Source: Chloroflexota bacterium (lineage in GTDB: Bacteria; Chloroflexota; UBA5177; JANWHV01). Taken from it: DNA of 11,456 bases. The position numbers were made by a program, and so were the translations under genes. Under the pieces are notes generated by a model. It saw nothing but the letters and a program-made list of their open reading frames with translations, did not search any database and was not told the origin of the DNA. Positions 1 through 11,456 of this stretch are shown here, piece by piece. Location of the stretch: assembly GCA_025450375.1 (NCBI GenBank), contig JANWHO010000121.1:1-11456 (forward strand), written 5' to 3'. Position 1 is the first letter of the stretch; each line of letters starts with the position of its first letter.

Positions 1-3000
1 CGCCAGATCGCGGGCAGCGTCGGGCAACCAATGGCGCCGGTGGTTCGGCGGATGATGGAAAGAGCGCTCGGGGCGACCTTTGCCGATGTGCGCGTTCACA
101 CTGGGAGCACGGCGGGCGGAGCCGCCCAGGCGTTGGGAGCGCAAGCCTTTACCATGGGAAGCGATATCTATTTTGCTTCCGGCAAGTTCGATCCAGAGGC
201 GCCCGCCGGTCTGGCTCTCCTGGCACACGAGTTGACCCATACGCGCCAACGAGCCGCCGTCCCCTTACGGAAAGCGGCTCCCGGTGCTCAGGCGCTGGGG
301 GCGGGCGAGGGCGAGCCCGCGCACCTGGAAGCGGAGGCCATGGGGACGGAGGCCGCTGTTTTGCGGGCCTTCTCGGGGCCGGCGCCGATCCCAATGCTGT
401 CCAGGATGGTTGCCGGGAACTACGAGGCGCTCGCCTCGGATCGCGAACCGGGGTCGGAAAGCATTTGGTCCGGATTCACCCAACGGCCGGCTCTGAGCGG
501 TGGCGGGGCACATCCGGCCATGGCGGAAGGCTTGGCTGCCTGGACCGCACGGGCCGCCGGCGCATCGGCCAGCCAGGGCGGCGCTTCCGTGCAGCGGCAA
601 GCCACGGTCGTGGGCTTATCCAGTTCCTCGGCCGCCGGTTCCTCAACCGCTGGTTCCTCAATCGCCGATCCGTCCCCCATTGCGGCGGCCATTCCGGCTG
701 CCGGACCAACTTCAGTAGCCCAGGGCGCCACGCTCACTTCGTCAAGCCCATCTCAGACCACCGCGCCGATTTTCGCGGTCACTCCGGCTTCCGCCCTGAG
801 CGGGCCAGCCGCCAGTGGAGCGGCAAGCGCCGCCGGGCCATCAGTGCAGCGGCAAGCGGCCACGGGTCTTCCCAGTGCCGGAGTGGCTGGCCTCGCCGGC
901 CTGCCGGTGGGGGCATCCTCGGCATTCGCGGCCCGACCGCTGGGAGAAGCTAGCGGAGTTGGTCAGTTCGTACAGCGATTCGCGACCGGCAGCACCTTGC
1001 TCGGCGATCTCGCGCGCCGGAGGGAGGCGCGGGTGTCGCCGGGGGCGATCACCTTGTCTCCGATTTTTAACCCGTCCAGCCCCGAGGGAACGCCACGAGT
1101 GCAGCGCCGGGCTTTGGCGTCCTACACCCTGGGCGCCGGGGCACCAGGGTTGGCGGCCTTCGCGGGCGGTATGGCGGCTCGGGCAGCGGAGGGATCGCGA
1201 TCCGGGTTTGCGAGCGGGCCGAGTTCCACGGCCCCTTCGGTGCAGCGAGCAGCGACCCCTGGGGCGCCAAGTCAAGCTGGGCGGGGCGAGCCGGCGGCGG
1301 CTGGGTCTCCGGCGCCAGGGATGACCGGCGGCGCTTCCGGTGTTTTTCCGATTCAACGCATGGGCTCGGTGGCGGGGACGCTGACAGCAGCATCTGGCCC
1401 GCCGCATGGTTCGGGCACGGCATCGCAGGCAACGGGATCCGCGTGGACGCATACGAGTGGCGCCCCGTCGGTTAGCAGTCCTCCGACAATCCCGATCCTG
1501 GACGGACTGGCGGCGCGCGGCTTTCAGGCCCCGGCCTTTACCGCGGGGGCCGAATCATTTTCGCTCCCCGTGCTGGCTCGCATGAGTACGGCGGAGTTCG
1601 GCTTGCTCGGCGGTTCCGCCTCATTGGGCGGTGGTGAAATGTGGACCGGGGGCGGCTCAGGCGCGTTCGCGGCACAGGGTGGGGCGGGCTGGGCCGCGGC
1701 GGGCGGGATGCTGCACCAGGTACAGCGTTCCACGCGCGGATCATCCACGCGCGGGTCAATGGATCTCGGTGCTCCAGTGGGCGCTTCTCTCCCGGCATCG
1801 GGTATGGCGATTTCGCCGGTACAGGCTACCACGGGCGGCGCTGTTCAGGGAGCGGCATTTGGCGGGTTCAACCAGCCGGCAACCTTTGGATCCAGTCCGC
1901 CGGCCAGCTTGGGGCCGGGCTGGTCGCCAAGCTTCGGGTTGGGGGCCGGCGCCACGGCATCGGTGCAACGCGCCACCGCCTATTCGGCCGCCGCGCCTGG
2001 GGTCATGTCCTGGAGTGGACAGGGCCATGGCCTGGCGGCCATGACCGGAGGTCTGGCCGCGCGGGCCCTGGGAACAGCCGTGATTCAGCGCCTGGCTAGC
2101 GGCGGATCAGTCGGATCGGTCGGATCGGAGCGATCCGCCGCCGGAGCTTTGCCGGCGGCGCGGGATATCGGCGCGATGGGTGGCGTGGCCGGAGCATTGG
2201 CGTTACAGCGGTTCACCGCCGGGGAGTCCGGCGGCGCGGCCCAGGCGGTACCCATTCTGGCCAGAATGGCCCCTGGGAGTGATGATGTCTCCACCTGGAG
2301 CGGGTCCAGGCTGGCCGGCACGCTCGCGGGCGCGGCAGGCGGCCTGGGCGGCGCGGCCAGTGGGTTGGCTTCCCAGGTCCAGCGAATGACCATGGGCGGT
2401 GAGTTCGGGGAATCGGTCGGATCTGTCCGATCCAACCGATCCGACCGATCCGACGGATTCGCGACCCTGGGGAACTGGCCGGCCCCCATGGCCATGGATG
2501 GAGGGCTGGCCAGCCGCGCCCTTGGGGCGGCCGGCGGCGTGCTTGGCCGAATCCAATTGGCAGCTGGGGCGGCGCCGGCCGTGCAGCGGCAGGCGGGGAG
2601 CACGGCCAGCCTGGTCAATCGGTTCGCCACCTCGGCCGCGATAGGCCAGGCGGCTGCCGGAGCCTCCGAGCGATGGCTGTCTACCGCGAACCTGATCCGA
2701 GGCGCTCGGGCAGGAGGAGCGGAGCTTGCCTCCGGGCCGGGCGCGGTGATGGTAAGCAGGATGTGGAGCGGGCAGCCAATGGGCGGCGCCATGACGAGCG
2801 ATCAAACGCCGGGCGCGGCGGGGCCCCTGGGTACCCCGGTTCCCGGCTTGCCCGACATGACGCAACGCGCGACGGCGGCCTCAAGCATGATGGTGTTCGG
2901 TGGTCTCGCCGAAACCGACGCCGCTCCATCGCGGACCTGGAGCGGGAGTGCTCCTACCGTACAGGTTAGCCGCGCGGTGGCGCTGCCCCCCAACATGCCT

Positions 3001-3303
3001 GCCCTGGCTCCCGCCTCGGGGCCCGTGGTGGCCCAAAGAAGCACGGCCTCGCTTGCCGCGCCTAACGGGGGATCGACTACGCTGGCCGGACGTGGGATGG
3101 TAGTGACTCCAAGCGTGCCGGTGCAGCGGGAGGTTACCGAGGCGAGCGCTCCCGCCAACGTGGCCGCGGCGCCGGTGGAATCGGGGAGTACGGTTCCCAC
3201 TGATATCGAGGCGCTGGTTGATACCGTGATTACGAGGCTCAAGCGGCAGCTCGCGCTCGACCATGAACGGGCCGGCGGATTCCGTACCAGTCTGTTGCGA
3301 TAG
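1..3303 (+). CDS. DUF4157 (eCIS core domain) protein with long VQR-repeat tail, 5' partial
   Basis: The frame is open through base 1. The ATG at 31 lies inside the conserved start of the DUF4157 domain (GQP(M/L)..VRR.ME...G..FADVRVH), so the true start is almost certainly upstream; residues here are counted from that ATG. DUF4157 covers about residues 1-75 and ends in HELTH (66-70), an HExxH zinc-protease-type motif. DUF4157 proteins are the commonest eCIS-associated family, and this one sits directly upstream of the hub genes. Residues 80-1050 are low-complexity Gly/Ala/Ser with no Cys, three Lys and four Tyr in the whole visible protein. They carry about 22 [VIL]QR-like motifs (strict copies at 187, 272, 314, 357, 404, 441, 564, 645, 685, 725, 783, 851, 1031), often about 40 residues apart, plus (L/V)(S/A)RM and WSG motifs. 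Residues 1056-1090 look like a charged helix (IEALVDTVITRLKRQLALDHER). The role is uncertain: cargo, lumen filler or length-determining protein are all possible. Confidence 0.85.
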   Translation, partial: RQIAGSVGQPMAPVVRRMMERALGATFADVRVHTGSTAGGAAQALGAQAFTMGSDIYFASGKFDPEAPAGLALLAHELTHTRQRAAVPLRKAAPGAQALGAGEGEPAHLEAEAMGTEAAVLRAFSGPAPIPMLSRMVAGNYEALASDREPGSESIWSGFTQRPALSGGGAHPAMAEGLAAWTARAAGASASQGGASVQRQATVVGLSSSSAAGSSTAGSSIADPSPIAAAIPAAGPTSVAQGATLTSSSPSQTTAPIFAVTPASALSGPAASGAASAAGPSVQRQAATGLPSAGVAGLAGLPVGASSAFAARPLGEASGVGQFVQRFATGSTLLGDLARRREARVSPGAITLSPIFNPSSPEGTPRVQRRALASYTLGAGAPGLAAFAGGMAARAAEGSRSGFASGPSSTAPSVQRAATPGAPSQAGRGEPAAAGSPAPGMTGGASGVFPIQRMGSVAGTLTAASGPPHGSGTASQATGSAWTHTSGAPSVSSPPTIPILDGLAARGFQAPAFTAGAESFSLPVLARMSTAEFGLLGGSASLGGGEMWTGGGSGAFAAQGGAGWAAAGGMLHQVQRSTRGSSTRGSMDLGAPVGASLPASGMAISPVQATTGGAVQGAAFGGFNQPATFGSSPPASLGPGWSPSFGLGAGATASVQRATAYSAAAPGVMSWSGQGHGLAAMTGGLAARALGTAVIQRLASGGSVGSVGSERSAAGALPAARDIGAMGGVAGALALQRFTAGESGGAAQAVPILARMAPGSDDVSTWSGSRLAGTLAGAAGGLGGAASGLASQVQRMTMGGEFGESVGSVRSNRSDRSDGFATLGNWPAPMAMDGGLASRALGAAGGVLGRIQLAAGAAPAVQRQAGSTASLVNRFATSAAIGQAAAGASERWLSTANLIRGARAGGAELASGPGAVMVSRMWSGQPMGGAMTSDQTPGAAGPLGTPVPGLPDMTQRATAASSMMVFGGLAETDAAPSRTWSGSAPTVQVSRAVALPPNMPALAPASGPVVAQRSTASLAAPNGGSTTLAGRGMVVTPSVPVQREVTEASAPANVAAAPVESGSTVPTDIEALVDTVITRLKRQLALDHERAGGFRTSLLR
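622..666 (+). repeat. Three in-frame 15-base units (SSSAA/GSSTA/GSSIA)
   Basis: Units at 622-636, 637-651 and 652-666 all contain the core GTTCCTC and encode a five-residue Ser/Ala unit. The second and third units share GGTTCCTCA exactly. This looks like local tandem duplication in multiples of three bases within the DUF4157 gene, in the longest stretch that lacks VQR motifs. Confidence 0.7.
1729..1758 (+). repeat. 15-base tandem duplication encoding STRGS twice
   Basis: Bases 1729-1743 and 1744-1758 agree at 14 of 15 positions (TCCACGCGCGG[A/G]TCA) and encode STRGS-STRGS directly after the VQR motif at residue 564. The near identity suggests a recent in-frame duplication. Confidence 0.85.
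2099..2141. repeat. CGGATCGGT-type repeat cluster 1 with 10-base inverted arms
   Basis: TCGGATCGG occurs twice in tandem at 2111-2128 (9-base unit, in frame, encoding GSVGSVGS with its flanks). The cluster is flanked by perfect inverted arms GCGGCGGATC (2099-2108) and GATCCGCCGC (2132-2141). Bases 2110-2128 are the exact reverse complement of 2436-2454 in cluster 2. Confidence 0.8.
2410..2460. repeat. CGGATCGGT-type repeat cluster 2 with 12-base inverted repeat
   Basis: Perfect inverted arms ATCGGTCGGATC (2412-2423) and GATCCGACCGAT (2438-2449) enclose a 14-base loop. An outer imperfect pair (2410-2420 with 2450-2460, 10 of 11) nests around them. The cluster encodes a Ser/Arg/Asp-rich stretch (GSVRSNRSDRSDG) unlike the surrounding Gly/Ala sequence. 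Bases 2436-2454 are the reverse complement of 2110-2128. Confidence 0.85.
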
Positions 3304-3330: not shown

Positions 3331-3999
3331 ATGCCCACGCAATTGCAGAAAGCCTACATTCTCAATAATGAGACACAGGCGCAAGTGTCGTGCCTGTTCA
3401 ATCCGACCGATTATTCGTTCACCAAGGCCAATACCTGGACGGCCACCCCGCTGACTGGGGCGGACGTTCCCGCGCCTCAATTCGGTGGCGGCGGCAACTT
3501 GAAGATGACCTGTGAGCTCTTCTTCGACACCTACAAGGGCGACGAGGCGAGCATGACCGATGTACGCACCTATACCGAGAAGTTGCTCAACCTGATGAAA
3601 ATCGACCCCTCGACCTTGAACGCGGATACCAACGCCAAGAAGGGTCGCCCACCAGTCTGCACCTTCCATTGGGGCAACTATTGGAGCTTTAAGGGCGTGA
3701 TCGAGAATATCACGATCAAGTTCACCCTCTTTACCAGCCAGGGCCTGCCGGTCCGGGCCACTGCCTCGATGAGTATGCTGCAAGTGAAGGATGACGGCAC
3801 CTATCCAGCCCAGAATCCGACCTCCGGCGGGGAGGGGATGCGGGCCGCGCGTACCGTGGAATGGGGCGATACCCTCGACCTGATCGCCTTCCGCGAATAT
3901 GGAGATGCCACCAAGTGGCGGCCGCTGGCCCAAGCGAATAACCTGGAGGATCCCAGGGCCTTGCGTCCTGGCCAGAAGTTAGTGGTGCCGGATATTTAA
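3331..3999 (+). CDS. CIS tube/spike adapter with C-terminal LysM domain (Afp7/Pvc7-like)
   Basis: A 222-residue protein of the CIS tube-adapter type. The N-terminal part (about 1-165) starts MPTQLQKAYI and carries the typical 'vsClFNPTDYSFTKANTW' segment, followed by a beta-rich tube-like body. Residues 175-220 form a LysM module (VEWGDTLDLIAFREYGDATKW ending LRPGQKLVVP). In AFP and PVC particles this protein sits between the tube initiator and the spike, and the LysM part helps join hub and baseplate. The ATG is supported by GGGAAGGGA at 3313-3321. The gene lies 27 bases after the DUF4157 gene and 18 bases before the spike gene, the usual Afp7-Afp8 order. Function is inferred from family and context and is quite secure. 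Confidence 0.92.
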   Translation: MPTQLQKAYILNNETQAQVSCLFNPTDYSFTKANTWTATPLTGADVPAPQFGGGGNLKMTCELFFDTYKGDEASMTDVRTYTEKLLNLMKIDPSTLNADTNAKKGRPPVCTFHWGNYWSFKGVIENITIKFTLFTSQGLPVRATASMSMLQVKDDGTYPAQNPTSGGEGMRAARTVEWGDTLDLIAFREYGDATKWRPLAQANNLEDPRALRPGQKLVVPDI

Positions 4000-4017: not shown

Positions 4018-5943
4018 ATGTCAGCTCCCAGCCCGCGCGACTTCTACGCAAGTTATATCATCAAGGTAGATGGATCCCCGCTGCCTGGGACCAAGGCCGA
4101 CAGTATCTTGTCGGTCGAGGTGGAGCGGAACCTGTACCTGCCCGCGTCCTTTTGCATCCGATTCTCCGATGGCGGCGTGGCGGTATCGGGCGCCAATCCA
4201 AGTCTGGCGCTGGCCAATGACACCAGTTTCGCCCAGATTGGCGCCGCGGTGGAGATTTTGGCCGGCTACGGAGAAACCCCGGCCTCGGTATTCAAGGGCG
4301 AGGTTACCTCGGTCGAGTTGGACATCTCGGGAACCGGGAACATGCCGTGCTTCCTGATCCGCGGCTACGATAAAGGACATCGCCTGCAGCGGGGACGGGT
4401 GAGCAAGACCTATCTGAACGTGAAAGACACGGATGTTGTCTCCACCATTGCCGGCGCCGCCGGGCTTTCCGCGAGTACGGACGCAACCACCGAGGTTTTC
4501 GATACGATCTCGCAGAACAACCAGACCAATTGGGAATTCCTGGCCGAGCGGGCGCAGCGGATCGGCTACGAGATGTTCGTCGACGACCGGACGCTTCATT
4601 TTCGCAAGCCGGCCCTTACCGGCAGCCCGGTGGCGACGTCTACCCTCTGGGAGGATCTGATCTGGCTCAATCTGCGCCTGACCAGCAGCGGCCAGGTGGC
4701 CACGGTCAACGTACAGGCATGGGATCCGCAGCAGAAGCAAGCGATCGTCGGTACCGCGTCCAGTCCCGATCAGCTGGTGAGTGTCAGTGACTTACAGGGG
4801 GGCAGTACGCTCAGCCAGCCCTTCGGGACCGCGAACATGGTGATCTCCAACCGACTGGTACATTCGCAGGGAGACGCCACGACTATTGCCCAGGCTACCC
4901 TCGACGAACTGACCGACAACTCCCTCCAGATTGAGGGAGAAATGAAGGGCAATCCGGCGCTGAAGCCCGGCACCCTCCTGACCCTCGCCAACCTGGGGGC
5001 TCGCTTCAACGGCAATTATTATGTCACGAGCGTCACCCACCGGGTCAGCCAGGGCGGGCAGTATACGACCCGGTTCACGGTAACCGGCCGGCGGGCCAAT
5101 ACCCTGGGCGAGTTGGTGGGAATGGCGGCGGGCGCGACCTGGAACGGGAACGGCCATGGCGCCAACCAGGCTCCGGTGATCGGCGTGGTGACCGACAATA
5201 CGGACCCGGATAAAAAGCAGGGCCGGGTCAAGGTCAAGCTCCCGTACATCGTGGGCGCCAGCGCCGAGTCGGGGGGCATCGTCACGGACTGGGCGCGGAT
5301 GGTCGTGCCGGGGGGCGGCGCGACCCGTGGAATGTACTATTTGCCCGAGGTCAACGACGAAGTGCTGGTGGCCTTCGAGCAAGGCGACATCAACCGCCCC
5401 TATATTCTGGGCGGCCTGTGGAATGGGACCGACGCTCCCCCCAAGGGGAACGACAAGGTGGCGACCGCCGCCGGGGTCAACCAGCGGATCATTCAATCGC
5501 GTACCGGCCACATTATCACCCTGGACGATACCGACGCCAAGCAAATGATCACCATTGTCACCCAGGGTGGACACAAACTAACCATGGATGACACGAGCGG
5601 CTCGCCGAATATCACGATCCTGGACAGCTCGGGGAACAACAAGATCGTGATCGACACCACCTCGAACAAGATCACGGTCACGGCCCAGGGTAATATCGAA
5701 TTGAACGCCACCCAGGATGTCAAGATCACCGGGCAGAACATTACCATGACCGCCCAGCAGGCGCTGACGGCCGAGGCCCAGGGAGGCGCGGCCACCATGA
5801 AGGGCGTGTCCACCTCGATCCAGGCCCAGGCGAGTGGCGAGATGAAGGCGAACGCGCAGATTTCCATCTCGGGCGAGGCGGGCGTGCAGATTTCCACCCC
5901 CGCCGTGGCTCAGGTGAGCGGCAACCCGATTATGCTCAATTAG
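4018..5943 (+). CDS. VgrG-like spike protein (Afp8/Pvc8-like)
   Basis: A 641-residue spike, expected to form a trimer at the centre of the baseplate. Residues about 10-370 match the gpD/gp27-like hub part. Residues about 388-470 form the gp5-type OB-fold (IGVVTDNTDPDKKQGRVKVKLPY, then WARMVVPGGGATRGMYYLPEVNDEVLVAFEQGD, ending YILGGLWNG). Residues about 485-641 are short alternating hydrophobic/polar strands rich in Thr, Asn, Gln and Gly (ITLDDT, LTMDDT, ITILD, KIVIDT, KITVTAQGNIELNA), consistent with a triple beta-helix needle. The protein ends VSGNPIMLN, a blunt end suited to a PAAR tip, and no toxic C-terminal extension is visible. The start has GGGAGG at 4002-4007. The family is secure; the exact fold of the needle is inferred. 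Confidence 0.93.
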   Translation: MSAPSPRDFYASYIIKVDGSPLPGTKADSILSVEVERNLYLPASFCIRFSDGGVAVSGANPSLALANDTSFAQIGAAVEILAGYGETPASVFKGEVTSVELDISGTGNMPCFLIRGYDKGHRLQRGRVSKTYLNVKDTDVVSTIAGAAGLSASTDATTEVFDTISQNNQTNWEFLAERAQRIGYEMFVDDRTLHFRKPALTGSPVATSTLWEDLIWLNLRLTSSGQVATVNVQAWDPQQKQAIVGTASSPDQLVSVSDLQGGSTLSQPFGTANMVISNRLVHSQGDATTIAQATLDELTDNSLQIEGEMKGNPALKPGTLLTLANLGARFNGNYYVTSVTHRVSQGGQYTTRFTVTGRRANTLGELVGMAAGATWNGNGHGANQAPVIGVVTDNTDPDKKQGRVKVKLPYIVGASAESGGIVTDWARMVVPGGGATRGMYYLPEVNDEVLVAFEQGDINRPYILGGLWNGTDAPPKGNDKVATAAGVNQRIIQSRTGHIITLDDTDAKQMITIVTQGGHKLTMDDTSGSPNITILDSSGNNKIVIDTTSNKITVTAQGNIELNATQDVKITGQNITMTAQQALTAEAQGGAATMKGVSTSIQAQASGEMKANAQISISGEAGVQISTPAVAQVSGNPIMLN

Positions 5944-6004: not shown

Positions 6005-6409
6005 GTGGCGGTAAACGACGATATCATCGGGGTGGGTTTGGGCTTCCCCATGGGGGTGGACGCCCGAGGCGGTATCCGCATGGCGCGGAGCGAGACCGAC
6101 ATCGAGGAAGCGATCCGCGTTATTCTGGGCACCGCGCGGGGGGAACGGCGCATGCGCCCTGAGTTCGGCTGCGCCATTCACGAGTACGTCTTCGCGCCCA
6201 TGGACCCCACAACCAGTGGCCTGGTCAGTTACCATGTGACCGAGGCTCTTGGCCGCTGGGAGCCGCGGATCAAGGTGGAGTCGGTGACGGCCCGCCCCGA
6301 TACGGTTTTCGACGGCTGCATGCTGGTGGAGGTGAACTACAGGATCCGCGCCACCGGCGACAAGCGCAATCTGGTCTATCCCTTCTATACGATTCCCGAA
6401 GAGCGTTAA
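6005..6409 (+). CDS. gp25-like baseplate wedge protein (Afp9-like)
   Basis: A 134-residue protein with the full gp25/GPW lysozyme-like baseplate signature: VGLGFPMGVDARGGI, ETDIEEAIRVILGTARGER, MRPEFGCAIHEYVFAP and the C-terminal ALGRWEPRIKVESV. The family has a lysozyme-like name but acts structurally: T4 gp25 and Afp9 help join the baseplate wedge to the first sheath ring. The start is GTG, chosen because an upstream ATG at 5977 is out of frame and the internal ATG at 6050 would cut the conserved GxGFP segment. Length is normal for the family. It lies between spike and wedge genes as in other CIS operons, although no PAAR gene accompanies it. Identification is secure. Confidence 0.93.
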   Translation: MAVNDDIIGVGLGFPMGVDARGGIRMARSETDIEEAIRVILGTARGERRMRPEFGCAIHEYVFAPMDPTTSGLVSYHVTEALGRWEPRIKVESVTARPDTVFDGCMLVEVNYRIRATGDKRNLVYPFYTIPEER

Positions 6410-6450: not shown

Positions 6451-8412
6451 ATGAGCTTGCCCGTCCCCGTCCTCGATGACCGCAAGTTTCAGGATCTGGT
6501 GGATGAGTGCAAGCGGATGATTCCGCATTTCACTCCCGAGTGGACGGATCATAACGTCTCCGATCCCGGCGTGACCCTGATCGAGTTGTTCGCCTGGATG
6601 ACCGAGTTACTCCTCTACCGGGTCAACCAGGTCCCGAGGCGGAACTACATCAAGTTCCTGGAACTGATTGGCATCTCCCTGGAATCGCCCCAGCCCGCGC
6701 GGGCGGAGGTCCTTTTCCGCCTGGCGGCGCCCTTGCAGGCATCAGTGCTGATTCCAGCCGGGACCGAGGTGGCTACCCTCCGCACCACCAGCCAGGCATC
6801 GATCATCTTCGCGACCGAGCAACCGTTGGAGATTCAGGTGCCGAGCCTGGCCCATGTGCTGGTCTCCCGCGACGAGTTCGCCTATCGCGACTATATGCTG
6901 GCCCTGCGAAATCCAACCTTGAGGGTGCCGATCTTCGAGGAGCCGCCCAAGCCTGATAACGCCTTCTATCTCGGTTTCGCCGGGGATCTGGCGGGGCATA
7001 CCCTGATGATCGACCTGGATTGCGAAATCGAGGGGATCGGGGTCGATCCCAAGAACCCGCCATTGGCCTGGGAATATTATGACGGCTCGTTGCGTAACTG
7101 GCGTCAAGTGGCCCTGGAGTCGGACGGTACCGGCGGCCTGAACAAGAGCGGCCAGGTGCTCCTGCACATCCCGCTCACCAGTCGCCCCCGCGAGTTGGAT
7201 CGCCGCCGGGCCACCTGGATCCGCTGCCGGATCATCCCATCGCCTCCCGGCCGCCGCGGCTACTCGTCATCGCCCCGCATCCTGGCTGCCTCGGCTCGGG
7301 CTCTGGGCGGATCGACGATGGCCAGCCATAGCGAGGTGATTCCTCTCGACCTGGTCGGGCGATCCGACGGCAATCCTGGCCAGTCATTCTTTCTTTCCTC
7401 GCCACCCATCCTTCCCCGCCGGGAGGGCGAAACAGTGGAAGTGGAGCGGGAGACTCCGGGCATCTTCGATCCCTGGCAGGAAATTACCGACTTCTCCGCC
7501 TCCGGTCCCAACGATCTTCACTTCACCTGCGACAGCGTGCAAGGGAAAATTCAGTTCGGGCCCGCCATCCGTCTGGCCACCGGGATCGAGCGCCAATACG
7601 GCGCCGTGCCTCCCCGTGGACGGTCCATCCGCTTCACCCGCTACCGGGTGGGGGGTGGAAGAGTAGGGAACGTGGGAGCGCAGACGCTGACCCAACTGAA
7701 AACATCGATCCCGTACGTCGCCTGGGTCACCAATCCTCAACCCGCCGTGGGCGGCACCGAGGCCGAGACCCTGGACGCGGCGCTGATGCGCGGCCCGCTG
7801 GTTCTGCGGAGCAGCCCCCGAGCGGTGACGGCCGAGGATTTCGAGCGGCTGGCCCGCGAGGGTAGCCCGGATGTGGCGCGCTGCCGCTGCAAATACGCGA
7901 AAGAACAGGACGACGGGATGGCGGGCAGCGTCCATCTGGTGCTGGTACCGAAAATGCCGACCACCGAAAGCGTGGTCCCCCCAGAGGAACTGGCGCTCTC
8001 CGACACGCTGCGCACGACCGTGCAGGACTTCCTGGACGCACGCCGGATGATCACCATTCGCATGGTGCTCAGTCCGCCGCAATATCAGGCGGTCTCGGTT
8101 CGCCTGGAGGTGTTCGCCAAGCCGAAAGCCAATAAGGCCCTGGTGAAAACCGAGGTGGAGAAGGCGCTCTACCGCTTTGTCCATCCCACGGTGGGGGGCG
8201 AGGATGGAACCGGCTGGCCATTCGAGCGTGGCCTCTTCATCTCGGATATTTATGGGCTCCTGCAATCGATGCCCAATGTGGATCACCTCAGTTCAGTGCA
8301 TTTCGTGGTCATTGACGCGAACGGCGCCGAACGGCCGATCACGGGAGACATGGCCGCCGTCTCCCCGGACACTTTGTTGTGCAGCGCCGCGCATGTGGTA
8401 TCGGTGAAATGA
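6451..8412 (+). CDS. Baseplate J-like wedge protein (Afp11-like)
   Basis: A 653-residue baseplate protein. The N-terminus carries the signature WTDHNVSDPGVTLIELFAW (31-49), then YRVNQVPRRNYIKFLELIGI, typical of 'putative baseplate assembly protein' in CIS and tail-like loci. The middle contains WQEITDFSASGPNDLHF and the RYRVGGGRVGNVGAQTLTQL stretch (397-416) of the baseplate J fold. GGTEAETLDAAL (434-445) and AVTAEDFERLAREGSPDVARCRC follow. The C-terminal part resembles the lower J-like domains. In particles it pairs with the P2 gpI or Afp12-type protein to form the wedge. The start has a modest GGAG at 6439-6442. It is shorter than AFP's Afp11 but normal, as I recall, for actinobacterial-type systems. 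The family is secure. Confidence 0.92.
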   Translation: MSLPVPVLDDRKFQDLVDECKRMIPHFTPEWTDHNVSDPGVTLIELFAWMTELLLYRVNQVPRRNYIKFLELIGISLESPQPARAEVLFRLAAPLQASVLIPAGTEVATLRTTSQASIIFATEQPLEIQVPSLAHVLVSRDEFAYRDYMLALRNPTLRVPIFEEPPKPDNAFYLGFAGDLAGHTLMIDLDCEIEGIGVDPKNPPLAWEYYDGSLRNWRQVALESDGTGGLNKSGQVLLHIPLTSRPRELDRRRATWIRCRIIPSPPGRRGYSSSPRILAASARALGGSTMASHSEVIPLDLVGRSDGNPGQSFFLSSPPILPRREGETVEVERETPGIFDPWQEITDFSASGPNDLHFTCDSVQGKIQFGPAIRLATGIERQYGAVPPRGRSIRFTRYRVGGGRVGNVGAQTLTQLKTSIPYVAWVTNPQPAVGGTEAETLDAALMRGPLVLRSSPRAVTAEDFERLAREGSPDVARCRCKYAKEQDDGMAGSVHLVLVPKMPTTESVVPPEELALSDTLRTTVQDFLDARRMITIRMVLSPPQYQAVSVRLEVFAKPKANKALVKTEVEKALYRFVHPTVGGEDGTGWPFERGLFISDIYGLLQSMPNVDHLSSVHFVVIDANGAERPITGDMAAVSPDTLLCSAAHVVSVK

Positions 8413-8440: not shown

Positions 8441-9172
8441 ATGGCGACCAGCCAACTCGCGCCCGGCCAGATTATGGCCAAGGCTCTCGGGGCTACCCCA
8501 CGTTCTCGCGCCAACGGCGCCGGGGGAGCCGGGGGGATAGCAGCGCAGGAAAGCATGTACCTGCGGTTCCTGCCGGGTATGTATCAAGAGGATCCGTTCC
8601 TGAAACGGTTTCTGATGATCTTTGAATCGGTGCTCGGCCCGATCGACCGCTCGATCGCGAATTTGCCGATCTACACCGAGCCGGAACTGGCCCCGGAGCA
8701 GTTTCTCCCCTGGCTGGCTCAATGGGTGGCCGTGACACTCGACAGCGCCTGGCCGCTGGAGCGGCAGCGCGCCCTGATCGCCAACGCGGTGGAAATCTAC
8801 CGCTGGCGCGGGACCAAATACGGCCTCAAACTGCATATTCAATCCTATACGGGACATGAACCGCTGATTGCCGAATACCGCTCCGGTTTCGTGCTGGGGA
8901 AGGAAAGCGGGATGGGCTGGACCACGCAATTGCTCAGTACGCCGCCCAATCCCTTGCTCTTCGTGGTCACTGCCCCGGTCGACAATCCGCGGGCGATTAA
9001 TGCCGCTATCCTGCGCCAGATTATCGAGGAGGACAAGCCCGCGCACACCACTTATCGCTTGCGCGTGGTTCTGGCCGGCGCGGCGCGCGCGGGCGAGGGC
9101 CGGACAGTTCAGGATCGGCGCTCGGCAAGCCCGGCCGCCGGCCAGCCAACGGGGGGGAAGGCAGGCGAATGA
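8441..9172 (+). CDS. Phage tail protein, P2 gpI-like (Afp12 position)
   Basis: A 243-residue protein. Residues 39-205 match the 'phage tail protein' domain of P2 gpI type (TIGR02242-like): MYLRFLPGMYQED, FLKRFLMIFESVLGPIDRSIANL, PEQFLPWLAQWVAVTLDSAWPLERQR, YRWRGTKYGLKLHI and a C-terminal VVTAPVD...IIEEDKPAHTTYRLRVV. In tails this protein joins the J-like protein to complete the wedge and can receive tail fibres. Residues 1-38 and about 212-243 are low-complexity and probably disordered. ATG 8441 has GAGAGG at 8429-8434; a second possible start, ATG 8555 at residue 39, also has AGGAA just upstream, so a shorter product cannot be excluded. The stop overlaps the next start (ATGA). The family is fairly secure. 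Confidence 0.88.
   Translation: MATSQLAPGQIMAKALGATPRSRANGAGGAGGIAAQESMYLRFLPGMYQEDPFLKRFLMIFESVLGPIDRSIANLPIYTEPELAPEQFLPWLAQWVAVTLDSAWPLERQRALIANAVEIYRWRGTKYGLKLHIQSYTGHEPLIAEYRSGFVLGKESGMGWTTQLLSTPPNPLLFVVTAPVDNPRAINAAILRQIIEEDKPAHTTYRLRVVLAGAARAGEGRTVQDRRSASPAAGQPTGGKAGE
9151..9172 (+). promoter_or_regulatory. RBS and ATGA stop/start overlap
   Basis: A purine-rich GGGGGGGAAGG (9151-9161) lies 7 bases before ATG 9169. The ATG overlaps the TGA (9170-9172) of the gpI-like gene. This arrangement favours translational coupling of the two genes. Confidence 0.65.
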
Positions 9173-10356
9173 ATATTGAGGAATTGGCGGCGTTCACCCT
9201 GCAACGGGTGACGGCCTATGACGGATTGGCGATCGACGCGGCCACCTGGACCGATGCCCATACCTATCACCAGGCGACGCAACGCCTCCACCTGCGCGCC
9301 TTGCATGGCTGGGGCATTATCAGCGGCCTCCGGGTGCAGCCCGTCGATCCCCCGACTCGGGGGGTGATCGTGCAGCCCGGCGTGGCCCTGGATGCCGACG
9401 GCAATTTGATCCGCGTCCCCCAGCCGGTGCGTATCGCTCTACCGCAACCGGCGGGCGGCACCGCTTGCGTGGTGCTTCGTTTTTCCGAGACCCCGGTGGA
9501 TTCGGGAAGCGGGGCGCCGGCCAGTCGGGTCAACGAGAATTTCAGTCTCCTGGTGAGCGAGCCGCCCCTGCGCCCCACCGATATCGAGGTGGCGCGGGTG
9601 CGGATGGCGGAAACGGCGGCGCCTATCGTGGCGGCGACAAGCGATTGGGCCCCTGGGCCGTACCAGATCGACCAGCGCTTCCGGCGCCAACTGCGGGAGG
9701 CGCCGATAGAGACGCTGACGATCGGCCAACTGACCCTGGCCGACGAGGCCACGAACGGCCAGCATCATCAAGGTTTGGTCAATCTGGTCCGTGAGTTGCG
9801 TTTAAGCGCTCCCTTCCTGGTCCACTATCTGGGCGAAGTGCGGATCGAACAAGCAGTGGGCCAATGTGACCTGCTCTATTTCAGCGGCGCCGGGGCCCCC
9901 CGTCTCACGCCACGCGAGGGCGCCCAACTGCTCGCCTTTTTGCGGGGGGGCGGGATCCTGTTCGCCGAGCCGTCCACGCAACAAGAACTCCAGCAGAAGG
10001 AAGGCGGCCGCTTCGCGGCCAGCTTCCAACGGTTGCTGACCGATCTCAAGCATGAGCTGGAGCCCATTGGATCCGAGCACCCTTTGTTCAACGCGCGCCA
10101 TCTGTTTGCCGCGCCACCCGAGGGACTGGGGGGGAGCGCGCCTATTCTGGCCAGGGACAACGTATTTTTGAGCCCGAACGACTACGGAGGCTGCTGGCAG
10201 GGCGGCCTGCCCGGTAAGCCCCTGGCGCGGGAGGTCATCCGGTCCGCCATGGAATTCGGAGTGAACATTGCCTGGCATGCCGCCGTTCGGGCGGCGGCGA
10301 CCCCGGCGGGCGCGGTGTCCGCGCCTCGGGTCGCCGAGCCGGTAGGTCAATCCTGA
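9169..10356 (+). CDS. Tail-associated N-terminal domain fused to a DUF4159-like domain
   Basis: A 395-residue protein with two parts. Residues about 10-130 (TDAHTYHQATQRLHLRALHGWGIISGL..V, then VIVQPGVALDADGNLIRVP) resemble N-terminal segments of proteins in tail and CIS loci with the 'Y...R.R.HLR.LHG.GI..GL.V' pattern. Residues about 185-375 look like DUF4159, a glutamine-amidotransferase-like fold: CDLLYFSGAGAPRLTPREGAQLLAFLRGGGILFAE (GGG at 260-262), EHPLF (303-307) and the closing EFGVNIAWHAA (362-372). DUF4159 proteins are known mainly beside MoxR/VWA membrane clusters; catalytic activity is not established for them, and I see no amidotransferase nucleophile motif here. There is no signal peptide or membrane segment. 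Translation is probably coupled to the gpI-like gene through ATGA, with GGGGGGGAAGG at 9151-9161. The DUF4159 call comes from motif memory and the role is unknown. Confidence 0.72.
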   Translation: MNIEELAAFTLQRVTAYDGLAIDAATWTDAHTYHQATQRLHLRALHGWGIISGLRVQPVDPPTRGVIVQPGVALDADGNLIRVPQPVRIALPQPAGGTACVVLRFSETPVDSGSGAPASRVNENFSLLVSEPPLRPTDIEVARVRMAETAAPIVAATSDWAPGPYQIDQRFRRQLREAPIETLTIGQLTLADEATNGQHHQGLVNLVRELRLSAPFLVHYLGEVRIEQAVGQCDLLYFSGAGAPRLTPREGAQLLAFLRGGGILFAEPSTQQELQQKEGGRFAASFQRLLTDLKHELEPIGSEHPLFNARHLFAAPPEGLGGSAPILARDNVFLSPNDYGGCWQGGLPGKPLAREVIRSAMEFGVNIAWHAAVRAAATPAGAVSAPRVAEPVGQS

Positions 10357-11456
10357 TGGCCGATGCGATTCGCGTCACTCTGAGCCCCGATCGGCTGGTG
10401 GTGCAGCCGGACAGCGACCCGATCGAGACCACGATTACGATTCAGAATAATGGAGCCACGGTCGATCAGTACGCGGTCGAACTGGACCAACTGCCCACTA
10501 CCTGGTATACGCTCTCCAATACCAGCGTCGCGCTGTTCCCCCAGGACAAGGAAGAAGCAAAGCTGGTGGTGCACCCGCCGAAAGGGGCAGCGGCCAAGGC
10601 GGGCAATTATCCCTTCAGCGTGACCGTGCTCTCACGGGCCGACTCCACCCAAACCACGCGAGTGGATGGGATGCTGCAGGTCGGTTCGGTGGGCGCCTTC
10701 GATACGGTGATCGCGCCCAGCAAGCTGGTGGGCCGGCGCGGCAAGTACATGCTGCATCTCAACAACGGCGGGAACGCCGATGTTAACGTCGAGCTTTCCG
10801 CCACCGACCCCGGGAACAAGTGCCGTTTTCAATTTCAGCCGCAAAAGGTCACGCTGGTGGCGGGGATGCGGAGCACCGTGCCCGTGACCGTGAAACCGCG
10901 ACGGAATTGGCTGGTTGGGGCGCGGAAGAACTTCGACTTCCAGGTCAAGGCGGCGCCCGATCATGGGGCGGCGAAAATGGTGACCGGGGTGCTGGTGCAT
11001 AAACCGATGTTCCGCACCTTACGTCCGCTCCGCAACATCTTCATTCTCCTGGTTCTGTTGATTCTGGTCCTGGTTGGGCTCCGCGCGTTGAACGGCAGCG
11101 GAGGCGTCGATGGGGCCACGTTGAAGAATAACGCGGTGACCTACAGCTGCAAGCATCTCAATCTGCTCTGCAATCAAGTGGCGACCGCGACTCCCGCGCC
11201 CTCGCCGACTCCCACTCCTAAACCTCGGGTGGTGGTCAAGCCGAAGCCCAAGCCGATCAAGACCTATCCCTTTGTCGGCGCCTTCAAGGAGTTCCATAAG
11301 CTGGCCCCTACCCTGGTCGGCCAGGGGCTCGAATATGAAAGCACGAACAGTAGGGTCGCGTCGCAGCGGACCACGAACGGCGAACTGCTCTTCGACCGGA
11401 AGGATGGTCACACGTTCCTGGTGCGAACCGACCATACGATCTGGCTCTTTTACCAG
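10356..11456 (+). CDS. CIS-associated single-pass membrane protein with two Ig-like domains, 3' partial
   Basis: The frame is open from ATG 10356 to the window edge (367 codons, no stop). The ATG overlaps the previous TGA (TGATG). Residues about 1-105 and 110-220 are two Ig-like beta-sandwiches (VTLSPDRLVVQPDSDPIETTITIQNNG, then a second with GKYMLHLNNGGNADVNVEL), similar to NEW3/CARDB folds. They resemble the membrane proteins labelled 'hydrolytic protein' in actinobacterial CIS clusters; I see no catalytic motif to support that label. A membrane segment at 228-245 (IFILLVLLILVLVGLRAL) follows RTLRPLRN, so by the positive-inside rule the Ig-like part is cytoplasmic and the rest outside. After the membrane come two Cys, a Pro/Thr/Lys linker (TPAPSPTPTPKP...KPKPKPIK) and a domain with GQGLEYES..., Q.TTNGELLFDRKDG. 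The architecture fits a membrane anchor or sensor for the injection system; that role is inferred. Confidence 0.85.
   Translation, partial: MADAIRVTLSPDRLVVQPDSDPIETTITIQNNGATVDQYAVELDQLPTTWYTLSNTSVALFPQDKEEAKLVVHPPKGAAAKAGNYPFSVTVLSRADSTQTTRVDGMLQVGSVGAFDTVIAPSKLVGRRGKYMLHLNNGGNADVNVELSATDPGNKCRFQFQPQKVTLVAGMRSTVPVTVKPRRNWLVGARKNFDFQVKAAPDHGAAKMVTGVLVHKPMFRTLRPLRNIFILLVLLILVLVGLRALNGSGGVDGATLKNNAVTYSCKHLNLLCNQVATATPAPSPTPTPKPRVVVKPKPKPIKTYPFVGAFKEFHKLAPTLVGQGLEYESTNSRVASQRTTNGELLFDRKDGHTFLVRTDHTIWLFYQ

Follow-up and report, generated by a model that had tools for sequence, protein, structure and literature searches.

A giant PhiQR-motif protein in the spike-plug gene slot of contractile injection systems

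The window considered here, a stretch of 11,456 nucleotides from a Chloroflexota bacterium (contig JANWHO010000121.1 of assembly GCA_025450375.1), contains a section of the gene cluster for a contractile injection system (CIS). Its genes run in the order giant DUF4157 protein, LysM-tube protein, VgrG-like spike, gp25, baseplate J, tail P2_I, a CIS13-like protein and an open reading frame (ORF) cut by the window's end. Our subject is the first of them, the largest ORF in the window, which carries a DUF4157 domain, is followed by baseplate genes and lies directly upstream of the LysM-tube (Cis7) and VgrG (Cis8) genes. Proteins of the same kind stand in this slot in several phyla, and we tentatively read them as chains that may both plug the spike and reach into the tube.

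The giant protein and its motif array

The features of the giant are listed below, PhiQR denoting a hydrophobic residue followed by Gln and Arg.

1..3303, + strand: giant plug-slot protein, a stop-free open frame of 1,100 visible residues, 5′-open at the window edge
31..255, + strand: DUF4157 / eCIS_core domain, residues 11-85 (Pfam PF13699, E=1.4e-26)
226-240, + strand: HELTH (HExxH), residues 76-80, intact
331..3198, + strand: Gly/Ala/Ser-rich chain, residues 111-1066, predicted disordered
589..597, + strand: PhiQR motif 1, VQR, residue 197
844..852, + strand: PhiQR motif 2, VQR, residue 282, retained in P0002 alone
970..978, + strand: PhiQR motif 3, VQR, residue 324
1099..1107, + strand: PhiQR motif 4, VQR, residue 367
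1240..1248, + strand: PhiQR motif 5, VQR, residue 414
1351..1359, + strand: PhiQR motif 6, IQR, residue 451, not retained by aligned relatives
1720..1728, + strand: PhiQR motif 7, VQR, residue 574
1963..1971, + strand: PhiQR motif 8, VQR, residue 655
2083..2091, + strand: PhiQR motif 9, IQR, residue 695
2203..2211, + strand: PhiQR motif 10, LQR, residue 735
2377..2385, + strand: PhiQR motif 11, VQR, residue 793
2581..2589, + strand: PhiQR motif 12, VQR, residue 861, not retained by aligned relatives
3121..3129, + strand: PhiQR motif 13, VQR, residue 1041
3202..3300, + strand: conserved C-terminal helix, proposed hub anchor, residues 1068-1090 and tail

The original prediction, made from the letters alone, described a lysine-poor, cysteine-free protein with an HELTH-bearing DUF4157 domain, and in this it was right: PF13699 scores 92.9 bits against a cut-off of 22, AlphaFold models residues 11-80 with a predicted local distance difference test score (pLDDT) of 83-92, and the visible protein has no Cys, three Lys and 65 Arg. 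Its N-terminus lies beyond the window, the HExxH motif standing at residue 76 here, at 551 in the related protein P0001 (1,781 residues) and at 418 in P0002. Searches of the visible part with Pfam, NCBIfam and PHROGs found no domain besides DUF4157 (the latter two gave no match at all), nor was a nuclease domain detected there, and the highest 19-mer hydropathy is 1.40. In the AlphaFold model, which was built with 8 sequences, pLDDT is below 50 over residues 111-1066 except at three residues, and rises to 86 in block 1071-1080 and 82 in block 1081-1090, both in the C-terminal helix; a fold search with this model returned nothing at E <= 0.001, as expected for one that is mostly disordered. The conserved helix and the spike-plug gene slot had both been overlooked in the original prediction.

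The motif array itself is real. Thirteen [VIL]QR motifs are present, where residues 96-1100 shuffled 2,000 times give 0.32 +/- 0.56 (maximum 4). A figure of about 22 modules had been proposed, which is too high because only 13 [VIL]QR and 17 QR are counted; four looser [LIV][AS]RM motifs added to the 17 give 21. The motifs had also been described as often about 40 residues apart, and this is partly borne out: the intervals are, in order, 85, 42, 43, 47, 37, 123, 81, 40, 40, 58, 68 and 180 residues, of which six of twelve fall between 37 and 47, with a tendency towards a period of 42.0 (p=0.057; evenness p=0.0505). Conservation also picks out the motif. Identity to P0001-P0005 is 73% at motif residues, 35% in motif flanks and 45% in the other parts of the array (permutation p=0.0012), and the hydrophobic-Q-R triplet is kept in most spanning relatives at 10 of 13 sites, the exceptions being residues 282, 451 and 861. 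Further short blocks are conserved against the same proteins, for example GHGLAAMTGGLA and RFATSAAIGQAA.

Inside the coding array, GATCGGTCG-type repeats made of 9-bp units occur at 2100-2137 and 2418-2455. The two stretches are mutually 87% complementary and encode SVGSVGS / SVRSNRSDRSDG, and the relative P0004 carries a GSDGSDRSVGS run that resembles these encoded repeats.

The genes downstream of the giant are as follows.

3331..3999, + strand: CIS_tube + LysM protein of the Cis7/Afp7 type (PF19266, E=5.3e-28; LysM, 2.2e-6)
4018..5943, + strand: VgrG-related spike of the Cis8/Afp8 type (PF04717, NF033848)
6005..6409, + strand: gp25 baseplate protein, Cis9 (PF04965)
6451..8412, + strand: baseplate J-like protein, Cis11 (PF04865)
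8441..9172, + strand: Tail_P2_I protein, Cis12-like (PF09684, TIGR02242)
10356-11456: last visible ORF of the cluster, cut by the window end, with weak Ig-like domain matches and a hydrophobic stretch followed by a Pro/Lys-rich stretch

Giants in the plug slot of other loci

An alignment of 21 spike proteins led to at least 80 genome loci and 8 loci of a viral collection (a single-protein scan of viral contigs gave none). An ORF was called upstream of the LysM gene in 69 of the 88 loci listed, and 58 of these 69 show the same C-terminal helix pattern, which is also present in L053, L065 and L082; the tail consensus is ExLAxxVYxxLKxRLxIExERxG (alignment A2, 40 tails). These 58 were analysed for composition and motifs and, with the window's protein, P0001, P0246 and P0247, make up a set of 62 giants. 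Left out by name after viewing, as tail-less or another gene, were L027, L033, L037, L039, L040, L047, L076 and L086, and also L082 (a duplicate of L081) and L065 (158 residues), while the pattern by itself excluded L053, which is a real giant carrying 14 motifs. Complete ORFs among the 58 span 270 to 2,628 residues; the set includes 18 that are truncated at the 5′ end as well as some close kin, so that counts over it are not independent. Plug-slot giants with the conserved tail are found in Chloroflexota, Cyanobacteria and Armatimonadota, with similar ones in Actinomycetota.

In an unbiased tripeptide scan of the 62 giants the top triplet was IQR (351 observed, 12.3 expected), followed by VQR (186 and 13.7). 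Enrichment of [VIL]Q[RK] is 10.7-fold in the giants, 11.1-fold in the 50 of the 58 in which DUF4157 was not seen (17 of them 5′-cut) and 11.3-fold in the 33 of those that are complete; it is 4.95-fold in 23 non-giant DUF4157 ORFs and 0.69-fold in 461 baseplate genes from the same loci. DUF4157 is optional in the giants, and the PhiQR motif is their hallmark. Linkers vary by lineage (Ser/Asn/Asp-rich in Pseudanabaena, Ser/Pro/Val-rich in L015, Gly/Ala-rich in the window) whereas PhiQR is constant. An array as long as the window's had been thought unusual, and this holds only in relative terms, L058 having 73 [VILMF]Q[RK] motifs. Some proteins contain regular arrays, with 54-residue units in L022, units of 36, 43 and 50 in L015 and of 19-22 and 35 in L041, and on these differing pitches we rejected a universal 40-residue pitch matching the tube rings. 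In composition, 51 of the 62 contain no Cys. Compared with the baseplate genes of its own locus, the giant has a lower Cys content in 56 of 58 loci and a lower share of Lys in Lys+Arg in 51 of 58. Absolute Lys counts range widely, from 129 in L051 to 1 in L068, so that the three Lys of the window's protein are the extreme of a trend.

There are also natural array-less versions: the proteins of L030 (Oscillatoria), L044 (Laspinema), L052, L061 and L046 have 270-325 residues, keep the tail, carry 0-1 PhiQR motif and, by eye, resemble longer giants at the N-terminus. A DUF4157-less giant in L074 (1-2241) has an array made mostly of a TI[HR]RKA-type motif in place of PhiQR.

As an independent check, a model was trained on the tails of 32 giants (31 from Chloroflexota or its classes, plus L029) and run against 11,805 frame tails taken from other loci, which yielded 35 hits. 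Hits were obtained in 22 of 35 cyanobacterial loci, every one in the gene called upstream of LysM; in 7 of 15 other loci, 5 of them in the upstream gene and two (L034 and L085) where no gene had been called; and in 5 of 18 actinobacterial regions. The window's own tail matches this model at E=1.7e-5, or 0.005 with its close relative L001 out of training. The giant is not universal, since another gene stands in that place in Nostoc loci that are among the 13 cyanobacterial ones giving no hit.

A relative of the Streptomyces LysM protein is encoded in 20 of 296 actinobacterial genomes, and a giant is present in 14 of 18 actinobacterial regions (L121 and L124 are without one; L122 and L123 end short). 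The complete ones have 749-1,332 residues, with 0-1 Cys, 1-9 Lys and 2-24 motifs throughout the group. Where the order is readable (L109, L114, L115, L116, L118, L125 and the plasmid locus L093) the giant precedes a second tube gene, and in L119 and L120 it adjoins LysM. In L093, from Streptomyces, a DUF6760 gene precedes the giant. No giant was seen in the haloarchaeal plasmid locus L098.

Elsewhere this slot is held by a small protein of the DUF5908 family (PF19265), whose gene is immediately upstream of the LysM-type gene in L090 and in five of five further loci (L128-L132). The cyanobacterial DUF5908 protein of L090 matches 7b5h_AL (Asl3322) at 2.5e-13 and 7aef_t (Algo6) at 5.7e-7, which identifies the plugs of solved particles as members of this family. 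According to the available portions of the structural reports, the spike cavity of these particles is plugged by a Cis6/Alg6 trimer and AlgoCIS assembly is abolished by loss of Alg6 (PMC8894135, PMC8894136). The giant shares with the Cis6/Alg6/Afp6 plugs its gene slot, between the tube and LysM/VgrG genes, and its predicted C-terminal helix may be of similar pattern; the Cis6 of Anabaena, in the accessible text, also has a flexible loop that reaches the lumen (PMC8894136). By contrast, the plugs examined are 50-58 residues long, begin with an MPxEIREL strand and are without DUF4157, a long chain or a PhiQR array. P0001 and P0006 begin with Met but lack this strand, and the start of the window's own protein is beyond its edge.

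No PF19265 match was found in the window's giant, either in the whole protein (searched to E=0.001) or in the C-terminal 100 residues (searched to E=10). Applied in the other direction, the giants' tail model scores DUF5908 tails at a median of 4.0 bits, where the 99th percentile of 5,000 frame tails is 1.9; 96% of 110 DUF5908 tails exceed the 95th percentile of the same frames, and for 66 of 80 distinct tails the real score is reached by at most 2 of 50 of the tail's own shuffles. These score tests are suggestive only, because of kinship among the 80 tails and of spurious frames among the controls, and at that strength they suggest that the giant's tail may be homologous to the DUF5908 plug helix.

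The giants' genomes were also searched for the tape measure, Afp14/Cis14 (CIS_TMP, PF19268). None of 54 genomes or records with a giant (30 + 10 + 14) gave a score above its cut-off, with the limits that genomes may be incomplete and that divergent tape measures could escape the model. In the first set (0 of 30) no control gave a match, so that this null alone does not show absence. Among 14 further genomes or records, the plug-bearing G131 matches at 5e-90 and none of the other 13, ten of them with a giant, is over cut-off; among 19 actinobacterial CIS genomes, 14 with a giant, there was again none, and here both of two positive controls matched. For DUF5908, none of 24 genomes, most of them with a giant, exceeded the cut-off, a match in G029 (L089) having been judged spurious as it lies below cut-off within a 345-residue frame. 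In the cyanobacterial family of G131 the plug and tape measure travel together: DUF5908 occurs in 9 of 118 genomes, all nine with CIS_TMP over cut-off, one further genome has CIS_TMP alone, and the giant-bearing member G031 has neither. Among 146 cyanobacteria, the one genome with DUF5908 is also the sole genome with CIS_TMP over cut-off, and a second gives a weak CIS_TMP match.

A possible plug that may also fill the tube

Our preferred reading, which we regard as possible rather than probable, is that the giant, encoded in the plug slot, is a hub-anchored chain which runs into the lumen and takes the place of both the plug and the tape measure. Its C-terminal helix would anchor it in the hub formed by spike and tube initiator, like Cis6/Alg6 in solved particles, and the disordered chain would extend into the tube lumen, where the PhiQR motifs may serve as short docking sites that hold the chain, load it, or both. 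The giant would then do the job performed elsewhere by the DUF5908 plug and CIS_TMP, seeding the tube and filling the lumen, and would exit on firing; DUF4157 would be an optional add-on of the same chain. A docking scaffold or lumen chain was among the roles originally suggested, and that part agrees with the conserved motif, the predicted disorder, the spike-adjacent gene and the lack of a recognisable CIS_TMP, all of which are drawn from sequence and prediction. Afp14/Cis14 is likewise a long protein expected in the lumen of a contractile tube; it differs in that the visible part of the giant has no PF19268 match and in that CIS_TMP accompanies the DUF5908 plug in the cyanobacterial family tested.

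Several observations weigh against this interpretation. A direct hhalign comparison of the giant tail with DUF5908 gave a probability of 4%, the window tail matches no solved chain, tail profile A2 is matched best by designed helical proteins, and just 4 of 14 actinobacterial giants are picked up by the Chloroflexota tail model, the other 10 having been grouped by eye on slot, composition and end helix. A second small protein (about 50-140 residues) with a giant-like end helix, which could be the true plug, is encoded upstream of the giant in L010, L013, L018, L019, L023, L025, L029, L042, L051, L053, L070 and L075, and Anaerolineae loci have a second small protein of this kind. Motif spacing varies between relatives, and no more than 20 of 62 giants carry a net positive charge. 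For the latter reason we dropped the idea that the Arg motifs dock electrostatically to a negatively charged lumen; any docking must be more specific than such attraction. In Streptomyces coelicolor, the available text of one report describes wild-type-like particles, about 85% of them empty, after deletion of Sco4256-4258 (PMC10066040); any giant there would not be the main lumen density, because these proteins account for most of it, and the 9-protein cryo-electron microscopy model of this CIS contains no plug (PMC12237407). Finally, CIS_TMP is also missing from 8 tested genomes or records of the same type in which no giant was seen (3 + 5), and since these are negative too and the first-set control was silent, its absence may reflect lineage or the reach of the model.

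A broader version is that a large branch of CIS combines plug and tape measure in a single protein, the plug helix seeding the hub and the PhiQR-studded disordered chain filling the lumen, and that this chain governs tube growth by docking to the wall, as a ruler by number of motifs and not as a rigid helix. Taken jointly, these two propositions are rather unlikely. If they are true, they would explain the identical length of Streptomyces particles built without a tape measure gene, a puzzle stated in print for the S. coelicolor cluster (PMC12237407). The giants bear on how such particles are built: the family offers a concrete candidate, with a specific motif, for the missing assembly protein of tape-measure-less clusters, and it unites many 'hypothetical proteins' of Chloroflexota, cyanobacterial and actinobacterial CIS loci. 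We did not find the arrangement described in the open-licence PubMed Central literature, a search that subscription papers and preprints fall outside.

Ruler, cargo, repeat or substrate

The giant might be a true tape measure, the length of the chain setting that of the tube, and would then be the ruler that CIS clusters lacking Afp14 seem to be missing. This would fit with the failure to find CIS_TMP in the giant-bearing genomes tested, with the uniform particles of S. coelicolor (268 nm, 60 tube layers), whose cluster has no tape measure gene (PMC12237407, PMC10066040), with the occurrence of giants, 749-1,332 residues long when complete, in other actinobacterial clusters, and with the like lengths of some close pairs (2509/2489 in L024/L058, 2071/1988 in L048/L073 and 872/904 in L018/L019). 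Lengths elsewhere do not back a strict tape measure, a role that the original prediction had raised. Systems whose VgrG proteins are 55-60% identical span chains of 270 to 2,489 residues (L044 and L058, at 59%), and L022 and L050, at 75%, differ 1.74-fold, with the limit that L050 holds masked bases; a strict ruler is accordingly doubtful unless the particles differ greatly in length. Moreover, the Oscillatoria, Laspinema and L046 proteins keep the tail with next to no array, some systems (for example L121 and L124) have neither giant nor CIS_TMP, the haloarchaeal plasmid locus showed no giant, and 61 of 62 giants lack a hydrophobic segment above threshold, the candidate transmembrane segments coming down to one marginal case. 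We consider the ruler unlikely.

We think it similarly unlikely that the giant is cargo, that is, a DUF4157 effector chain like the tape-measure-related effector Tme of Streptomyces davawensis, which would be loaded and later ejected, PhiQR serving as the tag for loading and the plug slot being incidental. DUF4157 marks effectors, in the part of that work available (PMC11297309), and the accessible sections on Tme describe a large, mostly disordered protein with DUF4157 near its N-terminus, encoded by the largest ORF immediately upstream of the baseplate genes, which co-eluted with spike and tube-initiator proteins (PMC11126660); the motif is enriched, too, in the non-giant DUF4157 ORFs. Cgo1/Cgo2, the AlgoCIS cargo, similarly combine a disordered N-terminal part with DUF4157, and their loss empties the lumen, although the text available describes them as separate cargo genes and not as a plug (PMC8894135). 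Tme differs, however, in having predicted transmembrane helices, coiled coils and a C-terminal endonuclease, whereas in the giant no hydrophobic segment or nuclease domain was detected. No domain beyond DUF4157 was found in the window's protein, its C-terminus is a conserved helix and not an effector domain, and most giants show no DUF4157.

Neutral expansion of a low-complexity repeat would account for the freely varying copy number and spacing, for the near-perfect tandem units of some arrays (such as the 54-residue units of L022) and for the existence of short array-less versions. It is improbable, given that the tripeptide is common to phyla with compositionally different linkers and that conservation between the window's protein and its close relatives falls on the motif. 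Least probable is the proposal that the PhiQR motifs are cleavage sites for the giant's own HExxH domain or another protease: HELTH is intact in the window's protein, separate DUF4157 genes are present in some loci and the Alg7 linker is cleaved in AlgoCIS particles, as the available text has it (PMC8894135), but self-cleavage, as opposed to cleavage in trans, is disfavoured because the 33 complete giants with neither DUF4157 nor HExxH keep their 11.3-fold motif enrichment.

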